From positions 1-32,918 of the forward strand of contig SHUG01000018.1 of the NCBI GenBank assembly GCA_009694735.1: a stretch of 32,918 nt of DNA, written 5' to 3'. How positions within the stretch are numbered: position 1 is the first letter of the stretch; the number at the start of each line of letters is the position of its first letter. This document shows positions 9,939 through 22,617 of this stretch, piece by piece. The notes beneath the pieces are model-generated. The model was given only the letters and a program-made list of their open reading frames with translations, had not been told where the DNA came from and did no database searches. This stretch comes from Acidobacteriota bacterium (GTDB lineage: Bacteria > Acidobacteriota > Vicinamibacteria > Vicinamibacterales > UBA2999). The position numbers and the translations under genes were made by a program.

Positions 9939-11642
9939 TCAGCTGTTTACAGAAGGCCAGCCCGCCTGTAGGAATATCTTTGTTGCCTCGCCTGCATCGC
10001 GCGCGGCAGGTGTGATGATCGTGCGCTCGCCGACCAGGAGCTTGCGGCCTTCACGAACTGCCGCTCGCACATCCGCTTCACAGATGAATGTCTCCGCCTC
10101 GGCGGACGGTGGCGAGGGTGCCTGGGGTGCGGACGGCCTGCCCTGAGCAACACCCGGATTGCCGGAGTCGAACGGTGCCAACCCGCGGGTGGCGAGGAAC
10201 TTGTCGATCCGGCTGGTCAATGCGTCGGCCGGGATTGAGTCTGGCTGTGGTTTGGTTGGTGCTTTAAGCAATGACGGGGCGCTCGACTGGGGCGCGGGGC
10301 GTAATTCGTAGGCCACCCTTTTGATGTTGAGGAGATGCTTCGGCGAGATGTTATCGGACGTGATGTTGCCGCCGAACCCCCCGCAGCCCAAGGTCATGGC
10401 CGGGTCCAGCCCGGTGGTCAGCCCAATCGCCCCGTGGGTGGTTGGCGTGTTCACGCAAATACGGTAGGCCGGCTTATGGAGGCCAAACTCGAGAATGATG
10501 GCGTCGTTCCGCGAGTGGATCGACATGGTGTGGCCCATGCCGCCGTATTTCAGGATCTGCTTGCAGCGTTCGCAGCCTTCGCGCCAGTCCTTCACCACGT
10601 AGTACGACAAGACCGGGCACAGCTTCTCGATCGATAACGGGAAATCGCGGCCCACGCCCTTCAGCTCGGCGATCAGCGCACGGGTGCCCGCCGGCACCGT
10701 GATGCCGACCTGCTCGGCGATGTAAACGGCTGACTTACCGACGAAGGCCGGGTTGGGCAGCCGCTGCGGCGTCACCAACTGCTTGGCGAGCGTCTCCGCC
10801 TGGGCGGGAGAGAGAAAATAGCCGCCCTGGTCCTTGAACTGGCGCCTGGCTTCTTCGGCGATCGCCTCATCCACGACGACCGAGTTAGGCGACGAACAGA
10901 GCACCCCGTTGTCAAACGACTTGCCGGTCAGGATGTCGTTGGCCGCCTTGCGGATATCGGCGCTCGATTCGATATAGCACGGCGCGTTGCCGGGACCGAC
11001 GCCGTACGCGGGCTTGCCGGCGCTGTAGGCCGCGCGCACCAGGCCCATGCCGCCGGTCGCGAGAATCAGCGACACCTCGCGCGCCTTCATCAGCTCCTGC
11101 GTGCCCTCGAGCGTCACGGTATTCATCCAGCCGATGGCGCCGTCGGGCAGCCCGGCGCGGCCGCCGGCTTCGTTCATGATGTCGGCGGTGCGCGTGATAC
11201 AGCGGGCGGCCGACGGATGCGGCGTCATCACCACCGCGCAGCGCGCCTTGATCGCGATCAGGATCTTGTAGATCGCCGTCGAGGTGGGATTGGTGGATGG
11301 AATCACCGCGGCCACCACGCCGAAGGGCTCGGCAATCTCGATGATCTTGCGGTCGTCGAAGCGGTTGATCACCCCCACCGTCTTCATGGGCCTGATGAAC
11401 TCGTACACGCGCTGCGACGCGAACAGGTTCTTCTGGATCTTGTCGTTCACCACCCCGAACGTGGTCTCTTCCACGGCCAGGCGGGCCAGGGCTTCGGCGT
11501 GCGGCGTCACCGCCGTGGCCATGGCCTCGATGATGCGATCGATCTGGTCCTGGGAAAACTCCGCGAGGGTGGCCTGCGCCAGCTTGGCGCGGCGGGCGAG
11601 CGCCCGGGCCTCTGCTATGGAGGCGAGGTCCTTGTCCGACAC
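9939..11642 (-). CDS. CoA-acylating aldehyde dehydrogenase, microcompartment-associated, with C-terminal extension
   Basis: This belongs to the EutE/PduP/AdhE-N group, which oxidises an aldehyde with NAD+ and CoA to an acyl-CoA. Residues 1-450 form the dehydrogenase: NAD-site ATGGMGLV (about 195-202), catalytic C249 in FDNGVLCSS, and LGCGGFGGN (418-426). Residues 450-567 are an extra tail. It has a Pro/Ala/Ser-rich linker, a short helix-like segment (about 472-488, LTSRIDKFLATRGL), another linker, then a module (about 520-562) with DVRAAVREGRK and ITPAARDAGE. From memory that module resembles the start of EutQ. The helix between linkers is a candidate encapsulation peptide. Start is GTG 11642, 3 bases after the stop of the shell-protein gene. 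The aldehyde substrate cannot be read from sequence. Confidence 0.9.
   Translation of the reverse strand: MSDKDLASIAEARALARRAKLAQATLAEFSQDQIDRIIEAMATAVTPHAEALARLAVEETTFGVVNDKIQKNLFASQRVYEFIRPMKTVGVINRFDDRKIIEIAEPFGVVAAVIPSTNPTSTAIYKILIAIKARCAVVMTPHPSAARCITRTADIMNEAGGRAGLPDGAIGWMNTVTLEGTQELMKAREVSLILATGGMGLVRAAYSAGKPAYGVGPGNAPCYIESSADIRKAANDILTGKSFDNGVLCSSPNSVVVDEAIAEEARRQFKDQGGYFLSPAQAETLAKQLVTPQRLPNPAFVGKSAVYIAEQVGITVPAGTRALIAELKGVGRDFPLSIEKLCPVLSYYVVKDWREGCERCKQILKYGGMGHTMSIHSRNDAIILEFGLHKPAYRICVNTPTTHGAIGLTTGLDPAMTLGCGGFGGNITSDNISPKHLLNIKRVAYELRPAPQSSAPSLLKAPTKPQPDSIPADALTSRIDKFLATRGLAPFDSGNPGVAQGRPSAPQAPSPPSAEAETFICEADVRAAVREGRKLLVGERTIITPAARDAGEATKIFLQAGWPSVNS
10115..10130. repeat. Second copy of the 16-mer found in comM
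   Basis: AGGGTGCCTGGGGTGC is identical to 4755-4770. Here it encodes part of the Ala/Pro/Ser-rich linker (about residues 505-510) just before the final module of the aldehyde dehydrogenase. The reading frame is kept. Confidence 0.55.
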
Positions 11643-11645
11643 GCC

Positions 11646-11927
11646 CTAAGCCTTGGGAAGAATCCGTTCCACTTCGGCATGCGGCCGCGGGATGACGTGC
11701 ACCGACACCAGCTCGCCGACCCGTCGCGCGGCGGCCGCGCCGGCGTCGGTCGACGCCTTGACAGCGCCCACATCGCCGCGAATCAGCACCGTGACGTAGC
11801 CCGCGCCGATGTATTCCGTCCCGATCAGGGCCACATTCGCGGCCTTGACCATGGCGTCGGCCGCCTCCACCGAGCCGATAAAGCCCTTTGTTTCGACCAT
11901 GCCCAACGCGTCTCGTGGAGTGTCCAT
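11646..11927 (-). CDS. Bacterial microcompartment hexamer shell protein (BMC-H)
   Basis: This single-BMC-domain protein of about 93 residues forms hexagonal tiles of proteinaceous organelles. The signature is clear: [20 protein letters not shown] near the N-terminus, then [25 protein letters not shown], and a C-terminal segment ending [16 protein letters not shown]. One BMC domain (CcmK/PduA/EutM type) is present. Neither a tandem-domain shell protein nor a CcmL/EutN-type vertex pentamer is encoded in this window. ATGs at 11927, 11942 and 11978 are in frame. I prefer 11927, which places the domain near the N-terminus as usual; none has a good Shine-Dalgarno. The aldehyde dehydrogenase follows after 3 bases, so the two are almost certainly cotranscribed. 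The divergent lipoprotein gene starts only about 50 bases away. Confidence 0.95.
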
Positions 11928-11978
11928 CGGAATGGACTGCATGATATTCTTGTTTCGAGCCCTATGCAACGGAGACAC

Positions 11979-13607: not shown

Positions 13608-14816
13608 ATGGAATTCCGCTGCCGGCTTGGCACCACATCTGGTGAGATCATCGAGGGCGTTTACGTGGCCCAGAGCGAAGCTGCCCTCAGGCGCGAGCTT
13701 GAGGACAAGGGGCTGCACGTTCTGGCACTGCGTCCCCGGCTCGGTTTTGGCAGTTTCTCGTTCGCCACGAATCGGAAGATCACCCGCCACGAGTTCCTGG
13801 TCTTCAACCAGGAATTGGCCACGCTGTTGAAGGCCGGCATGCCGCTGGTGCAGTCACTCGACATCTTGCGCACGCGTCTGACCAACCCCTTGTTCAAGTC
13901 GGTGCTGGACGACGTGCACGAAAAGGTGCGAAGCGGCACGGCGCTGTCGGACGCGTTCGCGGCCCACGGCGACTTGTTCCCGAGCGTCTACACCGCGTCG
14001 CTGATGGCGGGTGAGCGGGCCGGTAACCTGGATGCCGTGCTGCGCCGGTACGTCGCGTATTCCAAGACCGTCGACACCGTTCGCTCCAAGACCATCTCCG
14101 CCATGATCTATCCGGCGATTCTGGTTGGCCTGGCGGTGGTGCTGGTCTCGATCATCATCCTGAAGGTGGTGCCCACCTTCTCGGAGTTCTACCTCAGCTT
14201 CGGCGCGCAGTTGCCGCTGTCGACGCGCATCATCGTGGCGGTGTCGGATGTCTTGCGTGCCCAGTTCTGGTTCATCCTCATTGCGTTGGGCGCCGCCGTC
14301 GCAGCGTTCTGGAGCTGGGTGAAGCGGCCCGGACACGGCTCGAAGTTCGATGCGCTGTTGCTGAAGCTGCCGCTCGTCGGGTCCAGCTTTCACAAGTTCG
14401 CGACGACCCAGCTGGCGCGCACGCTCGCCACGTTGTTGAGCGGCGGCATTCCGCTGGTCAACGCGTTGGAGATTGCCGCGCGGTCGACCGGCAATCGTCA
14501 CCTGGGCGAAGAGTTGGCGATTGTCGCCACCAAGGTCCGCGAGGGGCAAAGTTTTTCCGCCACCGTGTTCGAGCGCAAGACCGTGCCCGACGTTGCCATC
14601 AAGATGATCGAAGTGGGCGAGTCCACTGGTGCCCTCACGGAAATGTTGAACAGCCTGGCGGATTTCTACGACCAAGAGATTGACACCGACGTGGCCCGCT
14701 TCGTCACCGTGATCGAGCCGGCCATGCTGGTCGTCATGGGCGTCGTGATCGCCGGCATCGTGCTGGCGCTCTACATGCCGCTGTTCCAACTGACGTCCGT
14801 GGTGGGTGGCTCATGA
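13608..14816 (+). CDS. pilC: PilC/GspF inner-membrane platform protein
   Basis: This is the polytopic platform protein on which the assembly ATPase acts in type IV pilus and type II secretion systems. The 402-residue protein has an N-terminal cytoplasmic segment and two T2SSF domains (about 62-185 and 265-387). Three transmembrane segments lie at about 168-188, 219-238 and 371-391, the usual topology. The paired motifs LLKAGMPLVQSLD (73-85) with AGERAGNLD, and LLSGGIPLVNALE (277-289) with VGESTGALTEM, mark the two repeats. It is the first gene of the operon; pilB starts 16 bases after its stop. T4P PilC and T2SS GspF cannot be told apart from this protein alone. The pilM-pilO neighbours favour the pilus-type name. 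Confidence 0.95.
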   Translation: MEFRCRLGTTSGEIIEGVYVAQSEAALRRELEDKGLHVLALRPRLGFGSFSFATNRKITRHEFLVFNQELATLLKAGMPLVQSLDILRTRLTNPLFKSVLDDVHEKVRSGTALSDAFAAHGDLFPSVYTASLMAGERAGNLDAVLRRYVAYSKTVDTVRSKTISAMIYPAILVGLAVVLVSIIILKVVPTFSEFYLSFGAQLPLSTRIIVAVSDVLRAQFWFILIALGAAVAAFWSWVKRPGHGSKFDALLLKLPLVGSSFHKFATTQLARTLATLLSGGIPLVNALEIAARSTGNRHLGEELAIVATKVREGQSFSATVFERKTVPDVAIKMIEVGESTGALTEMLNSLADFYDQEIDTDVARFVTVIEPAMLVVMGVVIAGIVLALYMPLFQLTSVVGGS

Positions 14817-14832
14817 CGAAGGGATGCTTTAG

Positions 14833-16494
14833 GTGGATGTGACCCCGGACGACACGCTCGACCCGGCAGCCCTGATCGACGCCGCCGCCACGCCGGAGGT
14901 GTCGGCCGAAGAGCGCAGCGCCGAAGAGGCCGCGGCCCGCCGCCTGGCCGAGCGGTATCACCTCGACTTCCTGAACATGCACGAATTCCGGATCGATCAG
15001 GAGCTGTTCCGGTCGATCCCAGCGGACTTGATGTTGCGCTACGGCTTCGTGCCGTATCGCCGCACTGGCCGCTCGCTGGTGATCGTCGTCTCCGACCCGA
15101 CCGACCTGCCGATGATCGACGAGTTGGGCGTGATTCTCGGCACGCCGGTGCGAGTGATGGTGGGCGCGCGCTCGGCCATCGAGGGCATGCTGAAGAAGAG
15201 CGAAAGCTCACAGCGCGTGCTCGACGATGCGACCGAGGAATTTCAGATCCAGGTCCTCAAAGACGACGACCTCGGTGACGACAACCTCACCGTCGAACGG
15301 CTCACCAGCGACAGCAGCCCGATCATCCGCCTGGTCGATTCGACCATCTACACCGCCATCCAGCGCCGCGCCAGCGACATTCACATCGAGACGCAAGACG
15401 ATGGCGTCTACGTGAAGTACCGCATCGACGGCGTGCTGCAGTCGGCCATGCGGCCGATTGCCAAGCGGTTTCACAGCTCCATCCTGTCGCGCATCAAGGT
15501 GATGGCGGAGCTCGATATTGCCGAGAAGCGCGTGCCGCAGGACGGTCGTTTCCGCCTGCGCGTGGCCGGCAAGACCATCGACTTCCGGGTCTCGGTGATG
15601 CCGAGCGTGCACGGTGAAGACGCCGTGATTCGTATTCTCGACAAGCAGTCGATGAGCGAGCAGTTCACCGAGCTACGCCTCGACATCCTCGGTTTTCCCG
15701 CGGAAGAACTGAAACGGTTCCGCAAGTACATCCGCGAGCCGTATGGCATGGTGCTGGTGACCGGACCCACGGGCAGCGGCAAGACCACCACCCTGTACGC
15801 GGCGCTCGCCGAGATTCGGACCATCGAGGACAAGATCATCACGATCGAAGACCCGGTCGAGTACCAGTTGAAGGGCATCACCCAGATACCGATCAACGAG
15901 AAGAAAGGGCTGACCTTCGCGCGCGGCCTGCGCTCGATCCTGCGTCACGACCCGGACAAGGTGATGGTCGGCGAAATTCGCGATCCCGAGACCGCGCAGA
16001 TTGCGATCCAGTCGGCGCTCACCGGCCACCTGGTGTTCACCACCGTTCACGCGAACAACGTGTTCGACGTGCTCGGCCGCTTCCTGAACATGGGGGTCGA
16101 GCCATACCAGTTCATCTCGGCGCTGAACTGCGTGCTGGCGCAGCGGCTGGTCCGCAAGATCTGCGCCGCTTGCAAGCATCCGGTGACGATCGATCCGGCG
16201 CTACTGGCGGAGTCGGCGATCGATGCCGCCGTGGCGGCGAAGCACACCTTCCATGAGGGCACCGGCTGCATCGAGTGCAGCGGTACCGGCTTCAAGGGCC
16301 GCATGGCCATTTGCGAACTGCTCGACCTGACCGACCACATCCGTGAAATCATCCTCGACAAGCGCCCGATCTCCGAGGTCAAGCGTGCCGCCAAGGAACA
16401 GGGCATGCGCTTGCTGCGCGAGTCGGCGGTTGAACGCGTGCTCAGCGGCGAGACCACGCTGCGCGAGATCAACAAGGTGACGTTCGTCGAATGA
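14833..16494 (+). CDS. pilB: PilB/GspE assembly ATPase
   Basis: This hexameric secretion ATPase powers subunit polymerisation. It has 553 residues. An N-terminal T2SSE-N/MshEN-like domain lies at about 35-125, followed by the linker and N2 domain (about 160-280) and the RecA-like core. The core shows Walker A GPTGSGKT (311-318), an Asp box around IITIEDPVEYQL, Walker B VMVGEIRD (377-384) and a His box TGHLVFTTVHAN. A tetracysteine zinc site (C444, C447, C479, C482) is typical of the extension class (PilB/GspE) and absent from retraction ATPases (PilT). The start is GTG 14833, with GAAGGGA about 9 bases upstream. The gene overlaps pilM by 4 bases (ATGA). No PilT homologue is in the window. Confidence 0.97.
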   Translation: MDVTPDDTLDPAALIDAAATPEVSAEERSAEEAAARRLAERYHLDFLNMHEFRIDQELFRSIPADLMLRYGFVPYRRTGRSLVIVVSDPTDLPMIDELGVILGTPVRVMVGARSAIEGMLKKSESSQRVLDDATEEFQIQVLKDDDLGDDNLTVERLTSDSSPIIRLVDSTIYTAIQRRASDIHIETQDDGVYVKYRIDGVLQSAMRPIAKRFHSSILSRIKVMAELDIAEKRVPQDGRFRLRVAGKTIDFRVSVMPSVHGEDAVIRILDKQSMSEQFTELRLDILGFPAEELKRFRKYIREPYGMVLVTGPTGSGKTTTLYAALAEIRTIEDKIITIEDPVEYQLKGITQIPINEKKGLTFARGLRSILRHDPDKVMVGEIRDPETAQIAIQSALTGHLVFTTVHANNVFDVLGRFLNMGVEPYQFISALNCVLAQRLVRKICAACKHPVTIDPALLAESAIDAAVAAKHTFHEGTGCIECSGTGFKGRMAICELLDLTDHIREIILDKRPISEVKRAAKEQGMRLLRESAVERVLSGETTLREINKVTFVE

Positions 16495-17444
16495 GCTTCC
16501 GTTCCCTCTTGCAAACCCCGCCGCCCGACGTGGCCATCGAGATCGATCACGCACACGTGGGCGCCGCCCGCCTGGTGTGGCGCGGCCACCAGGCCGTGGT
16601 GGCCGCGCACGCGCAAGAGGCCTTGCCGCCAGGCGCGGTGGTGCCGGCCCTCGCGTCGCTCAACATGGCCGATGTGCCGCTGGTCGCCAAGGTGATTGGC
16701 CGCGTGCTGGCCCAGTTGGGCAGCACGCCGGCGCGGGTCGCGCTGATCGTGCCCGACACGGTGGCGAAGGTCTCGCTGCTGAAGCTCGAGAAGGTCCCGG
16801 CCAAGGCGGCCGACCTGCAGGAGATTGTCCGGTGGCAGGTGCGCAAGACCGCGCCCTTCCCAATCGAACAGGCGGTGCTGAGTGTGTCACCGGGTGTGAC
16901 GGCCGCCGATGGCAGCTGCGAGATGGTGGTATCTCTGGCTCGGGCGGATGTCATTCAACAGTACGAGCACGCCTGCCTGATGGCGGGCGCCGAGGCCGGC
17001 CTGGTCGACATCGCGTCGTTCAGCGTGCTCAACGCCATCCTGGCGGCGCCGGGCGGGCCGTCGGGCGACTGGCTGCTCGTGCACATCACCGATACCTACC
17101 TCACGCTGGCGGTCATGCGCGACCAGTCGCTGCTGTTCTTCCGCCGCCGGGGCGAAGAGGCCGAGGGCACGCTGAACGACCTCATTCACCAGACCGCCAT
17201 GTACTACGAGGATCGCCTTCATGGCGGCGGCTTCGCCCGCGTGCTGATTGCCGGCGCGGCGCGGTTACCCGGCGGTGCCGAGAGCGTGCGGCGCGGCCTC
17301 GAAGAGCGCCTGCGCATCGGGGTGGAGTCGGTGGACCCGCGCAACGCGGCCGTACTGGTGGACCGCATTGGCGCGTCGCCGGAGTTGCTCGACGTGCTGG
17401 CGCCCCTGGTCGGCATGTTGCTGCGCGAAGCAAGGGTGGCGTAG
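16491..17444 (+). CDS. pilM: PilM-like actin-fold cytoplasmic assembly protein
   Basis: PilM is the cytoplasmic actin-like ring protein that binds the N-terminal peptide of PilN (GspL fills the equivalent place in type II systems). The 317-residue product has no transmembrane segment. Family-like features are the early DVAIEIDHAHVGAARL strand pair, the middle region LLKLEKVPAKAADLQEIVRWQ, a nucleotide-site-like DWLLVHITDTYLTLAVMR, and a late VLIAGAARLPGG glycine loop. Sequence conservation in this family is modest, so position carries weight: it lies between pilB (4-base overlap) and a pilN-like gene. It appears somewhat shorter than typical PilM (about 350). Confidence 0.88.
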   Translation: MSFRSLLQTPPPDVAIEIDHAHVGAARLVWRGHQAVVAAHAQEALPPGAVVPALASLNMADVPLVAKVIGRVLAQLGSTPARVALIVPDTVAKVSLLKLEKVPAKAADLQEIVRWQVRKTAPFPIEQAVLSVSPGVTAADGSCEMVVSLARADVIQQYEHACLMAGAEAGLVDIASFSVLNAILAAPGGPSGDWLLVHITDTYLTLAVMRDQSLLFFRRRGEEAEGTLNDLIHQTAMYYEDRLHGGGFARVLIAGAARLPGGAESVRRGLEERLRIGVESVDPRNAAVLVDRIGASPELLDVLAPLVGMLLREARVA

Positions 17445-17448
17445 CGGC

Positions 17449-18108
17449 ATGCTGCATACCAACCTGTCGACGCGGCCGTTCTACAACACGCGCGTCGTGC
17501 GCGCCGGCCTGATTGGGCTGGCCGTGATTGCCGCGAGCCTGACCGTGTTCAACGCGGTTGAGCTCTGGCGGCTGCAGCGCGCGAATCGTGAACTGGGCCA
17601 GTCGGTGAGCCAGAACGAGTCGGTCGCGCGCGACCTGCGGCAGAAGGCGCGTACGGTGCGGCAATCGATCGACAAGCCCCAGCTGTCGCTGGTGGATGCG
17701 GCGGCCCGCGAGGCCAACGAGCTGATCGACCGGCGCGCATTTTCGTGGACCGGGCTGCTCAACCAGTTCCAGGCGACCCTGCCGCCCGACGTGCGGATTT
17801 CATTGGTCCAGCCGCAGGTCGATGCCGAGGGACGGCTGCTGGTCGCCATCACCGTGTTGTCGCGCCGGCAGGAAGACCTCGATAGCTTCATCGCGGCGCT
17901 TGAGCAGACGGGCGTGTTCCAGGATGTGCTGTCGCGCTCGGATTCGAGCGCCGAGGGCGGCACGCTGATGTCGGTGCTGCAGGCCTATTACCAGGCCGCG
18001 CCCTCGGCGGCCCCGGCGGCCACTGCGCCGCCGCCAACGTCTGAACCAGGCAAGGGGTCGCCGGGCAACCGGAGCGCCGCCAATGTGGTGGCGGGAGGAC
18101 GGCCATGA
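17449..18108 (+). CDS. pilN: PilN-like bitopic inner-membrane assembly protein
   Basis: PilN links PilM in the cytoplasm to PilO in the periplasm. The 219-residue product begins MLHTNLSTRPFYNTR, a short cytoplasmic peptide in the position of the PilM-binding motif. One transmembrane segment follows (about 19-40), then a coiled-coil stretch (about 42-75) and a ferredoxin-like periplasmic domain (about 95-185). The C-terminal 30 residues are Ala/Pro/Ser-rich and probably disordered. The frame is open further upstream inside pilM, but ATG 17449 gives the expected topology. The stop overlaps the pilO start (ATGA). Confidence 0.88.
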   Translation: MLHTNLSTRPFYNTRVVRAGLIGLAVIAASLTVFNAVELWRLQRANRELGQSVSQNESVARDLRQKARTVRQSIDKPQLSLVDAAAREANELIDRRAFSWTGLLNQFQATLPPDVRISLVQPQVDAEGRLLVAITVLSRRQEDLDSFIAALEQTGVFQDVLSRSDSSAEGGTLMSVLQAYYQAAPSAAPAATAPPPTSEPGKGSPGNRSAANVVAGGRP

Positions 18109-18707
18109 AGGCGCTGTTTGCGATCGGCGGGGACGTGCCGCTCGCGCGGGTGGTGTCTGAGCATCGCCGCCTGCTGGTGCCGCTAGGCACCCTGCTGGCC
18201 ATCAACATCGGCGTGCTGATGCTGCTGGTGTTGCCGTTGCGCGCGTCGGTGCAAAGTGGTGGGACGCGGGCGCAGGAGTCGAGCCGGGCCCTGACCGAGG
18301 CGCGTGCCGAGTTGGCGACGGCCGAAGCGACCCGGGACGGCCAGGCGCAGGCCACGCGCGACCTCGATCGATTTTATCGCGAGGTGTTACCGGCGGATGT
18401 CAGCGCGGCGCAGCGCCTGACGCATTCGAAGTTGAGCCTGCTGGCGCGTTCCCACGATGTGGTGTTCCTGCAGAGTGCCACCTCGCCGGAGACCTTGGAG
18501 GATTCATCGCTCGAGCGGCTGGTGGTCACCTACAGCCTGAGCGGCGATTGGGAAGACGTGCAGCGGTTCATTCACACCATCGAGACGTTGCCCGATTTCG
18601 TCGTCATCGATAACCTGGCGCTGTCGGAAAGCGGCGAGGACAACGCGCCGCTGAGGCTGACCCTGTCGGTGTCGACATACTTCCGCGCGAGGCGCGATGT
18701 TCGCTGA
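18105..18707 (+). CDS. pilO: PilO-like bitopic inner-membrane assembly protein
   Basis: PilO pairs with PilN in the alignment subcomplex between platform and secretin. The 200-residue product has a short cytoplasmic N-terminus, a transmembrane segment at about 24-45, a coiled coil (about 52-92, rich in Ala/Glu/Arg) and a small alpha/beta periplasmic domain (about 100-195). That domain contains VTYSLSGDWEDVQRFIHTIE and TLPDFVVIDNLAL, a pattern typical of PilO. It overlaps pilN by 4 bases and the next gene by 11 bases, so translation is probably coupled. Confidence 0.87.
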   Translation: MKALFAIGGDVPLARVVSEHRRLLVPLGTLLAINIGVLMLLVLPLRASVQSGGTRAQESSRALTEARAELATAEATRDGQAQATRDLDRFYREVLPADVSAAQRLTHSKLSLLARSHDVVFLQSATSPETLEDSSLERLVVTYSLSGDWEDVQRFIHTIETLPDFVVIDNLALSESGEDNAPLRLTLSVSTYFRARRDVR

Positions 18708-19248
18708 CCGCCGCCGGCTGCTGATCGGCGGCGGCGTGATCGCGGTGCTGGCGCTGGGCATCTGGATGCGGACCGGGTCGGGCCAGGCGACGGCGCCGGT
18801 GGCGGCGCCGGCCAGGGTGCGCGCCGAGCGCAGCGCCCCGGCCGTTGCCGCTGGGCCCGTCGAGCCGCTGCGGCTCGAGGCGTTGACGGCGGCGCGGGGC
18901 GAACCGAGTGGCACGGAGCGGAACCCGTTTCGTTTTCGAGCACGAGTCGTGGCGCCGCCGCCGCGGCCGGTGGCGCCGCCGTCGGGAGAAGAGACGCGAC
19001 CGGTGATGCCGCCGATGCCGAGCGGGCCGCCACCGCCGCCACCGATTCCGCTGAAGTTCATTGCGCTCGTCGAGCGCGCGAACGGCGTGAAATGGGCGGT
19101 GCTCAGTGACGGGAAGGTCACAATGTACGGCAAGGACGGCGATTCCATTGACGGCCGCTACCGGATCGTCAAGATCGGTGCGGAATCAGTCGAGGTCACG
19201 CACATCGATGGCCGCGGCCGGCAGGTGATTCGGCTGACTGGGCAGTAA
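18697..19248 (+). CDS. pilP: PilP/GspC-like periplasmic connector protein
   Basis: The position between pilO and the secretin, plus the domain layout, suggests the PilP/GspC role of linking the inner-membrane subcomplex to the secretin. The 183-residue product has one N-terminal transmembrane segment (about 7-24), not a PilP lipobox, so it is GspC-like in anchoring. A low-complexity Ala/Pro/Arg region follows with ERNPFRF (74-80) and a run of prolines (111-116). The folded C-terminal domain (about 117-181) includes LKFIALVE, WAVLSDGK, GDSIDGRYRIVKI and VEVTHIDGRGRQVI, a homology-region-like beta domain. The sequence is divergent, so the name rests partly on context. Confidence 0.75.
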   Translation: MFADRRRLLIGGGVIAVLALGIWMRTGSGQATAPVAAPARVRAERSAPAVAAGPVEPLRLEALTAARGEPSGTERNPFRFRARVVAPPPRPVAPPSGEETRPVMPPMPSGPPPPPPIPLKFIALVERANGVKWAVLSDGKVTMYGKDGDSIDGRYRIVKIGAESVEVTHIDGRGRQVIRLTGQ

Positions 19249-19253
19249 AGCGA

Positions 19254-20576
19254 ATGATGATGAGGCGTTTGGCAAGCGGTGTCGTGGTGGTGGCCCTGGC
19301 GGCTCTGGTGGCTGCTGGTTGTGCCACCGGCCGCGCCTTCGCGCGTGGCGAGTCGGCGGGGCACGCGGGTGACTGGGAATCGGCGGTCGCCTTCTTCCGC
19401 CAGGCCCTGGATGACGACCCCGATCGGCCCGACTACAAGATCGCGCTGGAGCGGGCGATGACCGCCGCCGCGGCCCTGTACACGGACCGGGGCCGGCAAC
19501 TCGAGGCGGCCGGCCAGCCTGACGAGGCGCTTCGCGCGTACCGCAAAGCGCAGGAATTCGAGCCCTCGAACCGGACGCTGGCCGCCAAATCGGCCGAGCT
19601 CGAACGGTTGTTGCGGGACCGCCTCGAGGCCGCCACGCCGCGGCCCGAGATCGAGAAGATGCGACAGCAGGCGCGCCGCAGCGTCGAAGCGGTGCTCAGC
19701 CCGACCAACCCGGAGCCGTTGATCGTCAACCTGATCAACACCAGCCTGCGCGAGATCCTGAGCTTCATCGGCAACTACAGCGGCATCAACGTCACGTTCG
19801 ATCGCGATTTCCAGGACCGATCGATCACGCTCAAGCTTGAAGGCGTCTCGCTCGAACAGGCGCTGCAACAGATCATGATCTCGAATCAGCTCTTCTACAA
19901 GGTGCTGAACGAACGGACGATCATCGTCGCCGCCGACAGCTCGCAGAAGCGCACGCAGTACGAAGACCAGGTGATTCGCACCTTCTTCATCTCGAATGCC
20001 GACGCGACGGAGATGCAGACCTTGCTCACGGGCCTGATTCGCGTCGCCGGCATGGCGATTCAGCCGCAGATCATCGCCAACAAGACCGCCAACACGGTCA
20101 CCATCCGCGCCACCGGCCCGGTGGTGCAGATCGCGGAGCGCATTCTCGAAGCGAACGACAAGCCGCGCGCCGAGGTGGTCGTCGACGTCACCATTCTCGA
20201 GGTCAGCCGCGAGCGCGCCAAGCGTTACGGGCTCGACCTGGGGAGCTACTCCGCCGCCTTGAATTTCTCGCCGGAGGCGGCGCCCGCCGCCGACGCGAAG
20301 CCGTTCAACCTCAATACCATCTCGCAGGGCGTGAGCACCGCGGACTTCTACCTGTCAGTGCCTTCGGCGGTGGTCCGCTTCCTGGAGACGGATTCGCAAA
20401 CCAAGGTGCTGGCCAAGCCGAACCTGCGGGGTACCGAAGGTCAGAAGTTGACGCTCAACCTCGGTGAAGAGGTGCCCGTCCCAAGCACCACCTTCACCCC
20501 AATTTCACCGGGTCGGTGGGGTCCAACCCTCTCGTCTCGTTCAGCTACCGCCCGATCGGTATCAATGTCGAGATGA
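19254..20576 (+). CDS. pilQ: PilQ/GspD-like secretin, N-terminal part (frameshifted near 20505)
   Basis: Secretins form the outer-membrane gate of pilus and type II systems. This part begins with a lipoprotein-type signal (VAAGC, C23). TPR-like helices follow (about 35-125), then an STN/N0 domain (about 157-228, NLINTSLREILSFIGNYSGI) and an N1-like domain (about 238-310, FFISNADATEMQTLLTGLI). The start of the secretin core shows DVTILEVSRERAKRYGLDLG and TKVLAKPNLRGTEGQKLTLN up to GEEVPVPSTTFTPI. After about residue 418 the frame departs from the family and stops at 20576. The missing core continues in the frame reached by adding one base (next entry), so the two entries are one gene. The ATG at 19254 follows the pilP-like stop by 5 bases. 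Confidence 0.9.
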   Translation: MMMRRLASGVVVVALAALVAAGCATGRAFARGESAGHAGDWESAVAFFRQALDDDPDRPDYKIALERAMTAAAALYTDRGRQLEAAGQPDEALRAYRKAQEFEPSNRTLAAKSAELERLLRDRLEAATPRPEIEKMRQQARRSVEAVLSPTNPEPLIVNLINTSLREILSFIGNYSGINVTFDRDFQDRSITLKLEGVSLEQALQQIMISNQLFYKVLNERTIIVAADSSQKRTQYEDQVIRTFFISNADATEMQTLLTGLIRVAGMAIQPQIIANKTANTVTIRATGPVVQIAERILEANDKPRAEVVVDVTILEVSRERAKRYGLDLGSYSAALNFSPEAAPAADAKPFNLNTISQGVSTADFYLSVPSAVVRFLETDSQTKVLAKPNLRGTEGQKLTLNLGEEVPVPSTTFTPISPGRWGPTLSSRSATARSVSMSR

Positions 20577-21724
20577 CGCCGCGCGTTACCTACGACGGCG
20601 ACGTGATCCTGGAGATCACGGTCGAGAACAGCTCGCGCGGGCAAGACCTGCTGGTCGGCGACCAGAACCTGCCGTCGTTCTTCTCGCGCAAGGTGACGAC
20701 CAAGCTGCGGCTGCGTGATGGCGAGTCGAACCTGTTGGCGGGCCTGCTCCGTGAAGACGAACGTCGGTCGCTACGCGGATTTCCTGGTGTCATGCGATTG
20801 CCGATCGTGAAGCAGCTCTTCTCCGACAACGACAAGAACATCAGGCAGACCGATATCGTCATGTTGCTGACACCGCGCATCGTCCGCACCCACGAACTGC
20901 GGGCGTCTGACCTCAGCCCCATCTACATCGGGACACAGGCCAACATGACGTTGGGAGGACCGCCCGCCGTGATCGGCGGCGACGCTCCACCCGCCACCGG
21001 GGTTATTATCCCGGGCGTGGCACCGTCACCGGCTGCGGCGGCAGGCCAGCCCACGGGTCTTCCACCCGTGGCCGTGACCGGCACTCCGGCGGGGACGAGC
21101 GTGAGGCCGATCGTGCCGCCAGGCAGTTCGCCCATTCCAGGCATGGTCATGGCGCCGTCCGCGCCCGCCGCACCGGCTCCCAGCAACATCGTGGTGTCGC
21201 CGATCGATTTGCCGGTCGTCTCGGCACCGCCGCCAGCGCCTGCGCCGCCGCTACCGCCGACCGCGCCTCCAGCAGCGGCGGTTGCGCCGACGCCCGCGCC
21301 ATCATCGTCAACGCCGGCTCGCGTCACGCTGAGCCCACCGAGTGAAATGCGCATGGGCAGCGGCCCGTACACCGTGCCGATCGCCATCGCCGGTGCGTCG
21401 CGTCTCTCGACGCTGACAATTTCGCTCACCTACAACCCGGCCCTGATGCGGGTTCGCAGCGTGCAGGAGGGCACCTTCATGCGGCAGGGGGGCGTGGCTC
21501 CGGCATTCAGCAGCCAGGTGGACGAGAAGAGCGGTCGCGTCGACATTGTGATCACGCGGCCCGGCGATCAGACCGGCGCATCCACCGCGGGCTTGCTCGC
21601 CGCCCTCCTGGTTGAACCGGTGGCGGCCGGTACCGGTTCGCTCTCGGTGAGCGGTTCGGCCAGTGTGCCCGGCGGCGCCAGCGCACCGCTGCAGTTCCTG
21701 CCAGCCGGGATCACGGTGCGGTAA
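20516..21724 (+). CDS. pilQ: PilQ/GspD-like secretin, C-terminal part, with a cohesin-like domain
   Basis: This is the continuation of the secretin. From SNPLVSFSYRPIGINVEMTPRV onward it has the conserved core: VILEITVENSS, FFSRKVTTKLRLRDGES, LLAGLLREDERRS and TDIVMLLTPRIVR (about 112-124 of this part). A Pro/Ala/Thr/Val-rich linker of about 115 residues follows. A final beta-rich domain (about 266-402) contains TLTISLTYNPALMRVRSVQ and GRVDIVITRPG, the pattern of a cohesin fold. The nominal GTG at 20516 is simply where this frame can open, not a likely natural start. The stop overlaps the first pseudopilin gene by one base (TAATG). Confidence 0.88.
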   Translation: MGSNPLVSFSYRPIGINVEMTPRVTYDGDVILEITVENSSRGQDLLVGDQNLPSFFSRKVTTKLRLRDGESNLLAGLLREDERRSLRGFPGVMRLPIVKQLFSDNDKNIRQTDIVMLLTPRIVRTHELRASDLSPIYIGTQANMTLGGPPAVIGGDAPPATGVIIPGVAPSPAAAAGQPTGLPPVAVTGTPAGTSVRPIVPPGSSPIPGMVMAPSAPAAPAPSNIVVSPIDLPVVSAPPPAPAPPLPPTAPPAAAVAPTPAPSSSTPARVTLSPPSEMRMGSGPYTVPIAIAGASRLSTLTISLTYNPALMRVRSVQEGTFMRQGGVAPAFSSQVDEKSGRVDIVITRPGDQTGASTAGLLAALLVEPVAAGTGSLSVSGSASVPGGASAPLQFLPAGITVR

Positions 21725-22191
21725 TGATGGCGCGCGGGTTCTCCTTCGTCGAATTGCTGGTGGTGACGACCATCGTCCTCATTCTCGCCTCAGCGGTGCA
21801 ACCCCTGGCCAGGGTGACGATTCAGCGGACCCGCGAGGCCGAGTTGCGGCGCGTCCTTCGTGACATGCGGACCGCGATCGACAAGTTCAAGGATGCCGCG
21901 GACTCCGGGCAGATCCCGAGCACCGAGCTGAAGGCCAATAGCGAGGGCTATCCGCCGGATTTGCAGACGCTGGTTGACGGCGTCTCGGTGGCCAACGACG
22001 CGACCGGCCGCAAGCTGAAGTTCCTGCGCCGCATTCCCACCGATCCGACCACCCTTGACGCCGGATGGGGACTGCGGGCTTACCAGGACAAGCCCAATTC
22101 GTCGAGTTGGAGCGGCCAGAACGTTTATGACGTGTATTCCAAGAACCAGGGCACGGCCCTCGACGGCACGAAATACCGCGACTGGGACTGA
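21724..22191 (+). CDS. GspG/type IV pilin-like pseudopilin 1
   Basis: This is a major-pseudopilin-like subunit of 155 residues. It has a four-residue leader (MMAR), a type III signal with cleavage expected in RG/FSFVELLVV, Glu at mature position 5, and a hydrophobic helix of about 20 residues. The C-terminal domain has GspG-like features: YPPDLQTLVDG, RRIPTDPTT, YDVYSKNQGTALDGTKYRDWD. It starts at an ATG overlapping the secretin stop; a second ATG is at 21727. It is a paralogue of the next gene, with which it shares the ALDGTxYxDW ending. A prepilin peptidase must process it, but none is encoded in this window. Confidence 0.9.
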   Translation: MMARGFSFVELLVVTTIVLILASAVQPLARVTIQRTREAELRRVLRDMRTAIDKFKDAADSGQIPSTELKANSEGYPPDLQTLVDGVSVANDATGRKLKFLRRIPTDPTTLDAGWGLRAYQDKPNSSSWSGQNVYDVYSKNQGTALDGTKYRDWD

Positions 22192-22206
22192 CGAGACAGG
22201 GATCAC

Positions 22207-22617
22207 ATGAAGAAGACAGGCTCCCAGTGGGCGCGCGCGCGCGGGTTCACGCTGATCGAAGTGCTGGTCGTCTTGACCCTGATCGTCGTGCTGGCCAGCA
22301 TGGGCATGACGCAGTACCGGAACAGCGTGACGCGGGCCGAAGAAGCCGTGCTCAAGGAAAACTTGTTCCGCATGAACGACGCCATCGACCAGTACTACGC
22401 CGACAAGAACAAGTGGCCGTCAGACCTGGCCGAGCTGTCGTCGGCAGGCTATATCCGCGAAATCCCGATCGACCCGATGACCAAGGCGAAGGACACGTGG
22501 ACGACGACGCAGGCGGAGCCCGACCCGAATAATCCGGCATCGCAGGTCGGCATCTACAGCGTCAAGAGCGGGTCTGACCGAACAGCGCTGGACGGCACGC
22601 GCTACGCGGACTGGTAG
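22207..22617 (+). CDS. GspG/type IV pilin-like pseudopilin 2
   Basis: This is the second major-pseudopilin-like subunit, 136 residues. A leader of 13 residues is rich in Lys/Arg. The cleavage site is RG/FTLIEVLVV, with Glu at mature position 5, followed by the hydrophobic helix. The globular part has the GspG pattern YYADKNKWPSDLAELSSAGYI, IPIDPMTK and GIYSVKSGSDRTALDGTRYADW. AGGGA lies 6-7 bases upstream of ATG 22207. It is the last gene of the compact operon and is followed by a repeat block and a strong hairpin. Confidence 0.92.
   Translation: MKKTGSQWARARGFTLIEVLVVLTLIVVLASMGMTQYRNSVTRAEEAVLKENLFRMNDAIDQYYADKNKWPSDLAELSSAGYIREIPIDPMTKAKDTWTTTQAEPDPNNPASQVGIYSVKSGSDRTALDGTRYADW

Follow-up and report, generated by a model that had tools for sequence, protein, structure and literature searches.

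We report that an acylating aldehyde dehydrogenase (AldDH) of an acidobacterium ends in a tail that carries a conserved helix and, behind it, a compact module that recurs on other proteins of bacterial microcompartments (BMCs) and that sequence comparison supports well as a homologue of the N-terminal region of EutQ. Our reading, to which we give a probability of roughly 0.6 for the mechanism as a whole, is that this enzyme has a built-in linker between shell and core. It would serve an acidobacterial microcompartment of the ACI type as its core aldehyde dehydrogenase, encoded with one BMC-H on a satellite locus, and its tail would hold two targeting elements on flexible linkers. The helix, which resembles an encapsulation peptide (EP), would attach to the enzyme core or to a receptor of EPs, and the C-terminal module to the shell, where the co-encoded BMC-H may be its docking site. 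One chain would then do what the separate EutQ, and probably PduM, does. The evidence comes from the anatomy and conservation of the tail, the homology of the module, its recurrence on BMC cargo and its association with shell genes at the level of whole genomes. The window, meaning the whole stretch of DNA that was analysed, is 32,918 nucleotides long.

The gene and its surroundings

The AldDH reading frame (9939-11642, minus strand) encodes 567 amino acids, and Aldedh is the sole Pfam family found in the protein. Residues 3-448 match TIGR02518 (acetylating acetaldehyde dehydrogenase), the best NCBIfam model over that span, with 596.5 bits, a score just below the equivalog cut-off of 620.1 for the type I BMC AldDh (IPR013357/TIGR02518). 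Cys249 is invariant among the 28 full-length proteins compared and, judged by its motif FDNGVLCSS, is presumably the expected catalytic cysteine. The features of the gene are collected in Table 1.

Table 1. Features of the AldDH gene and of the neighbouring shell gene, in window coordinates
Feature	Position	Strand	Evidence
BMC-H shell protein gene, directly upstream of AldDH	11646..11978	minus	PF00936 97.6 bits, translation
Acylating aldehyde dehydrogenase body, residues 1-448	10299..11642	minus	TIGR02518 match, invariant Cys249
Linker 1, residues 449-471, of variable length	10230..10298	minus	28-tail alignment, low pLDDT
Candidate encapsulation peptide helix, residues 472-485, ADALTSRIDKFLATRG region	10188..10229	minus	Tail model, conserved RIDxFLxxRG, analogy with type I AldDhs
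Linker 2, Pro/Ser/Ala-rich, residues 486-518	10089..10187	minus	Highly variable in 28 tails, pLDDT about 35 (full-length model)
Terminal module, about 42 aa, residues 519-560, FICEADVRAAVREGRKLLVGERTIITPAARDAGEATKIFLQAG, probable homologue of the EutQ H1/H2 region	9963..10088	minus	Profile A5 match at exactly these bases, hhalign, pLDDT
Last residues (WPSVNS) and stop codon	9939..9962	minus	ORF end

Only 3 bases separate the stop codon of the BMC-H gene, whose ATG is probably at 11942, from the GTG start of AldDH. Of 31 related loci, counted without the Brevibacillus one, 28 have the same neighbour just upstream of their AldDH gene. Two of the three exceptions (L033 and L036) start inside AldDH, and the third (L023) has upstream sequence in which no BMC-H was found. 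The related set consists of 32 loci, collected with search patterns of which one was taken from the tail itself. They are titled Acidobacteria (some of them gp6, Vicinamibacteria or Luteitalea) except for the Brevibacillus one and L040; the latter is titled Acidimicrobiia, and its AldDH is identical to that of a genome (G078) ranked in the window's genus. Across the window's order an AldDH match at E 1e-60 or better occurs in 141 of 162 genomes; the weaker of these matches (32-44% identity) belong to other AldDH families. The AldDH of this soil bacterium probably works inside a protein-shelled compartment.

A cluster resembling those for type II secretion or type IV pili adjoins the AldDH/BMC-H pair (13608-22617, plus strand; GspF, GspE, PilM, PilN, PilO, a secretin and two pseudopilins). 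Its secretin gene (GspD/PilQ-like, 19254-21724, plus) is apparently split into two overlapping ORFs, which correspond to positions 301-460 and 470-594 of TIGR02517; a frameshift, an assembly error or a real split would each account for this.

The ACI microcompartment of the genome

The window's genome (85.7% complete, 182 contigs) matches the published ACI type. In this type the main locus holds a class II aldolase with a C-terminal EP, a BMC-H, a BMC-P triplet and a 2-hydroxyacid dehydrogenase, the AldDh is placed on a satellite locus, and the hosts are Acidobacteria, mainly of subdivisions 4 and 6 (PMC8217296). In our genome contig C15 carries, in a row, a class II aldolase (PF00596), a BMC-H (PF00936), three BMC-P (PF03319) and a 2-hydroxyacid dehydrogenase (PF00389/PF02826), and in this draft assembly the AldDH and its BMC-H lie apart from them on contig C129, as expected of a satellite locus. 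The host group agrees as well, as judged from the taxa of the related loci. The aldolase of the main locus (L008) ends in a C-terminal helix, recognized by eye, with a moment above that of 99.4% of shuffles. The module was not found in this aldolase, so it is not required by all cargo. There are three BMC-H genes in the genome, on three contigs, and the third (L003, G000:C140:24794-25021) has no further shell gene within the 3.2 kb examined.

Both the ACI loci and the C-terminal EPs of the type I AldDh class are already known. The type I BMC AldDh with a C-terminal EP in ACI (Sutter et al. 2021, PMC8217296) is like the window's enzyme in its best match to TIGR02518, its C-terminal helix, its satellite locus and the ACI gene set on another contig; what that source says of the ACI EP includes no mention of a module behind it. 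Other type I AldDhs (L078, L079, L082 and L083) end in the EP and, unlike the window's AldDH, gave no module in the profile scan described below.

Anatomy of the tail

The TIGR02518 match stops at residue 448 and about 119 residues remain, close to the tail of about 117 residues that a preliminary description of this DNA had proposed from the letters alone. Its order of linker, short helix, Pro/Ser linker and module is confirmed in the ORF and in an alignment of 28 tails (the window's and those of 27 of the 32 loci), and the peptides that it named, LTSRIDKFLATRGL, DVRAAVREGRK and ITPAARDAGE, all stand in the ORF in the order claimed. The alignment has two conserved islands amid variable Pro/Ala/Ser linkers. 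The first, GIxAxxLxxRIDQFLASRG, covers the helix, in which D35 and L38 (tail numbering) are invariant; the second, FVCEDDVRxAIxxGRKLxIxERTIVTPAARDLGE, covers the module, in which F74, C76, E77, D79, A83, I97, T99, P100, A102 and F112 are invariant. Profile A1, built from the modules of 27 ACI AldDHs, finds the terminal module in 30 of the 32 related loci, a count to be read in the light of the profile having been built from the same family. The two loci without it are L015, which stops at a contig end, and L041, the distant Brevibacillus AldDH.

An AlphaFold2 model of the tail alone (mean pLDDT 75.0, pTM 0.41) shows tail residues 27-40 as helical (pLDDT blocks 73 and 85) and folds the module as a compact strand-helix-strand-strand-helix-strand unit with pLDDT 92-96 over tail residues 71-110; confidence is low between the two. 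The full-length model (mean pLDDT 71.2) gives 79-87 for the module, 53-57 for the helix and 31-39 for the linkers. It is poor in the C-terminal third of the dehydrogenase (residues 391-470, mean pLDDT 28-42), and the position of the tail on the enzyme is therefore not readable from it. As to whether the tail packs as an ordinary part of the dehydrogenase fold, the finding that the preliminary description had named as contradicting it, the tail-only model thus speaks for a separately folded module between low-confidence linkers, but the full-length model is too poor to argue against docking on the enzyme.

The helix at residues 472-485 is a candidate EP. It had been called amphipathic-looking, which holds in part. 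Large hydrophobic residues do cluster on one face (a median of 4.5% of shuffles are as good, with a range of 1-33% over 28 helices), but the Eisenberg moment is not above that of shuffles, 56-70% of which are equally high for the three ACI helices. A strongly amphipathic EP by Eisenberg moment was thus not borne out, and it is the cruder count of large hydrophobics that favours an amphipathic face. An EP at the C-terminus is published for type I AldDhs (PMC8217296), so the helix would be a known kind of thing, though its sequence is atypical. The suggestion that a C-terminal EP is unusual has to be given up for the same reason; what is unusual is the module behind the helix.

Searches for a known fold of the module gave little. 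Foldseek against the PDB returned 194 matches at E up to 10, the best at 0.33 and none at 0.001 or better, and the matches of VIA-align over 957 chains, with a best Z of 5.0 (7tzi_B) followed by IF2/eIF5B domains at Z 4 or less, are not informative. A PDB sequence search with A1 brought up designed TIM barrels and similar proteins, which matched through repeat effects at E values no better than 0.0016. We also considered a circularly permuted E2 peripheral subunit-binding domain, an idea that arose from the TPxxRxLAxExGI and ITxEDV pieces of the E2 domain, which resemble pieces of the module in swapped order. E3_binding (PF02817, 36 positions) is matched at only 3-17 (2-18), also with the module halves swapped; it fits the first half only, the swapped halves give no longer match, and the candidate was rejected.

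Relatives of the module among microcompartment proteins

The preliminary description had likened the ITPxAR pattern to the N-terminus of EutQ, and the likeness stands up to profile comparison: A1 aligns with the EutQ N-terminus at an hhalign probability of 89.9% (E 1.7e-6, 38% identity over 34 columns). The search that it had proposed against EutQ, EutT and other BMC proteins was also positive: A1 against A3, a profile of 11 non-AldDH BMC accessory proteins, reaches 98.2% (E 4e-14) with a score of 59.5, compared to 17.8 for the best of 200 column shuffles and 9.3 for the reversed profile. The members of A3 were picked from A1's own matches with boundaries cut by eye and this comparison is thus not blind; the EutQ comparison was set beforehand by the earlier idea. 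As single sequences against A1, the Enterococcus EutQ scores 53.8 and the remaining proteins 16.9 to 33.5, PduM being the lowest. The PduM score lies within the shuffle range and is the weakest link among the relatives of the module.

The scan with A1 covered 4963 unannotated ORFs of at least 30 aa from 10 BMC regions chosen by shell-gene similarity. Its nine top-ranked matches are all BMC-operon proteins. Four have E below 0.01, namely an Enterococcus cupin of the EutQ type (E 1.2e-8), a small hypothetical protein from a BMC locus in Rhodococcus (E 9e-5), EutQ of Klebsiella (E 0.0018) and a flavoprotein of Rahnella (E 0.007). They are followed by a Cetobacterium protein beside AldDH and PduL (E 0.042), a flavoprotein of Ilyobacter (E 0.11), EutT of Klebsiella (E 0.14), PduM of Citrobacter (E 0.75, 7.7 bits) and a PduL extension of Acetoanaerobium (E 0.84). 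Reversed ORFs reach 7.5 bits and 20 shuffled sets 5.9-14.1 bits, and with one of the 20 shuffles at 14.1 bits only the three best matches (32.7, 20.2 and 16.1 bits) singly exceed every shuffle. Among 3912 ORFs of the ACI loci, no protein other than AldDH scores above 9.1 bits. When A1 was run on whole records (8 of the 10, 10.6 Mb, L082 and L083 left out) there were 7 matches at E up to 1. Five are BMC genes already found; the other two are at W03:471936 (E 0.046), an unassigned place outside the fetched region, and within the gene of a carboxyltransferase (E 0.2). This whole-record scan missed PduM, EutT and the Ilyobacter flavoprotein. A tblastn search of a plasmid collection with the tail gave no match, as expected at that sensitivity.

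Two further small proteins were seen in these regions. In the Acetoanaerobium BMC region a 106-aa frame (L082:19989-20306, plus) has the module and a second helical part and no cupin, as if it were the EutQ N-terminus alone. The small protein of the Rhodococcus BMC locus (L080:15167-15550, plus) has the module followed by a Pro/Ala-rich tail.

EutQ of the ethanolamine microcompartments is a close known counterpart. Its N-terminal region would contain a homologous module of about 40 residues, in which the two helices follow each other as they do in the AldDH, and beside it lies a further region, H3/H4, that meets EPs (PMC12487888). The AldDH tail differs in that the module stands at the C-terminus of an enzyme and has neither a cupin domain nor H3/H4 beside it. 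The EutQ cupin (PF06249) is absent from the AldDH protein and the tail is thus not EutQ as such; PF06249 has no match in the genome, at its 85.7% completeness. The N-terminus of EutQ is uncovered by the reported Pfam models, PF06249 starting at residue 81 in the Klebsiella protein.

What is published on EutQ supplies the functional part of our proposal. In Salmonella, EutQ without residues 9-41 (H1/H2) stays with the cargo and away from the shell, EutQ without 62-99 (H3/H4) stays with the shell, and residues 2-62 show no NMR change on adding the EutC EP; the shell binding of H1/H2 is known from localisation, not from a structure (PMC12487888). EutQ without residues 1-100 no longer binds EutM, a BMC-H (PMC4827028). 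In EutQ numbering the module is 9-41, as checked on the 229-aa Klebsiella protein. The Gram-positive EutQs of E. faecalis and L. monocytogenes are reported to be without the first three helices (PMC12487888).

PduM (PF15953 PDU_like, TIGR04493) would, like the AldDH, join EP and module in one chain, and it differs in being a separate structural protein with its EP at the N-terminus, the loss of which protein partly separates shell and core (PMC12108088). The first hint of the BMC nature of the module came from here, as the tail weakly matches the end of PDU_like (11.8 bits, cut-off 27; E 0.24 in Pfam), of TIGR04493 (13.6 bits, cut-off 50; E 0.047 in NCBIfam) and of TIGR02536 (E 0.2). It is the end of the PDU_like profile, positions 112-152 of 153, that aligns with the module, and an RpiB module (see below) scores 25.3 bits (E 1.6e-5), the AldDH tail and RpiB matches being below the family cut-offs and those of the tail in the C-terminal part only. 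These weaker similarities suggest that PduM may carry the module at its C-terminus. EutQ and PduM each contact the core with one part and the shell with a different one, and we therefore read the AldDH tail as the same device placed on an enzyme.

The module across acidobacterial genomes

The preliminary description had made recurrence in BMC loci a touchstone, and the module does recur, on the BMC-operon proteins listed above and in acidobacterial genomes with shell genes. The combined profile A5 (E up to 0.001) finds it in 104 of 297 acidobacterial genomes, most matches being AldDH-sized frames, and PF00936 shell genes (E up to 1e-8) are found in 127 of the same genomes. All but three of the module-positive genomes (101 of 104) are also BMC-positive, with a Fisher p of 4e-50 that overstates independence because the genomes counted are related; the three are G213, G235 and G333. 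In 38 regions with other frames or lone matches the carriers were assigned by motif, with Pfam added for four: 27 are RpiB, 7 DeoC, 3 class II aldolase and 1 (G333) a broken AldDH-like frame. Taken alone, the non-AldDH carriers occur in 36 genomes, 34 of them with shell genes (p 4e-12). Compared with A1, the RpiB group (28 rows, that of the window's genome included) scores 49.1, the DeoC group 38.6 and the aldolase group 40.3, against 19.0, 17.6 and 17.2 for the best of 100 shuffles.

These results bear on an alternative in which the tail is an ordinary lineage-specific extension, packed on the dehydrogenase or idle, and its EutQ likeness is convergence. Docking on the enzyme would be compatible with the poor full-length model, short helix caps such as ITxxDV and TPxAR are common, and E3_binding half-matches the second helix. 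However, the module is conserved while the linkers vary freely, four profile comparisons exceed every shuffle, and shell genes accompany nearly all carriers. We regard this alternative, already disfavoured, as highly improbable.

An EP-like helix stands ahead of the module in the DeoC and several RpiB carriers and at the C-terminus in the aldolases; in some RpiB carriers, such as L121, none is visible before the module. Two of the aldolase carriers sit within full BMC loci. The SPU-type RpiB and DeoC proteins have the same module at their N-terminus, before the enzyme and not after it as in the AldDH, and no shell gene was found near RpiB and DeoC carriers within the few kb fetched (18 of 20 regions examined for neighbours). 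Carriers of the L121 kind could be taken to mean that the module is itself the cargo tag, a folded encapsulation signal additional to the EP and directed at the enzyme core instead of the shell, and most carriers are indeed cargo-type enzymes. Such a role is quite unlikely given that EutQ lacking H1/H2 is still found with the cargo and that its N-terminal residues do not respond to the EutC EP (PMC12487888).

Judging by its distribution, the module may be a docking domain common to many compartment enzymes. Going further, we put forward tentatively, at somewhat less than even odds, that encapsulation signals come in two classes: besides the EPs there would be this module, a folded and mobile domain for docking in BMCs, joined to the N- or C-terminus of unrelated cargo (AldDH, RpiB, DeoC, class II aldolase, PduL and EutT) and of the linkers EutQ and PduM. 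Alternatively, the module might be associated with BMCs yet serve some other purpose (contact with a metabolite, a cofactor or a different luminal enzyme, or dimerisation) and be carried into the lumen by the EP helix or the enzyme. Its presence on chemically unrelated proteins (the adenosyltransferase EutT, PTAC, isomerase and aldolases) would fit this, as would the small alpha/beta unit of the AlphaFold model, the weak fold matches also being alpha/beta domains. The carriers are linked by no common ligand or chemistry, however, the common property found being BMC association, and the region of EutQ is needed for shell association (PMC12487888); we consider another job unlikely.

The module bears on how cargo is attached to the shell of microcompartments. 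EPs are known, and the linkers EutQ, PduB and PduM have each been reported separately, from one system at a time (PMC12487888, PMC12108088); in the open-access literature we found no description that brings EutQ, EutT and PduM together or gives a shared domain of this kind a name. A shared module behind EutQ and, less securely, PduM, together with the enzyme fusions, would turn these cases into one testable rule, and a mobile docking domain, if true, would account for the link between core and shell in microcompartments of many kinds. If confirmed, the shared domain would be a larger result than the AldDH variant itself. It would also offer a folded tag for engineering besides EPs, and a sequence marker of cargo genes outside the BMC loci and far from shell genes, as with the module-RpiB proteins of acidobacteria.

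One of two RpiB paralogues in the window's genome may be such a case. L141 (G000:C33:7774-8190) is plain, and L142 (G000:C57:46411-46821, minus) has an N-terminal extension, MKAFDIITEADARGLAIGSSVTLNTGGHVTPLAADTLKARRITV, that resembles the module. L142 scores weakly against the profile, with 11.7 bits (E 0.013 in a small set), and does not appear in the A5 genome listing; it aligns with the RpiBs of the relatives G109, G053, G013 and G090, whose own matches have E values of 5e-6 to 3e-5 or better. We regard L142 as a candidate for extra cargo of the ACI compartment, and a module-RpiB there would point to sugar-phosphate chemistry in this cryptic compartment. A separate RpiB-like protein (L147:5469-6263, minus) has the module and has its usual RpiB motifs replaced, and it may be a degenerate, perhaps structural, copy.
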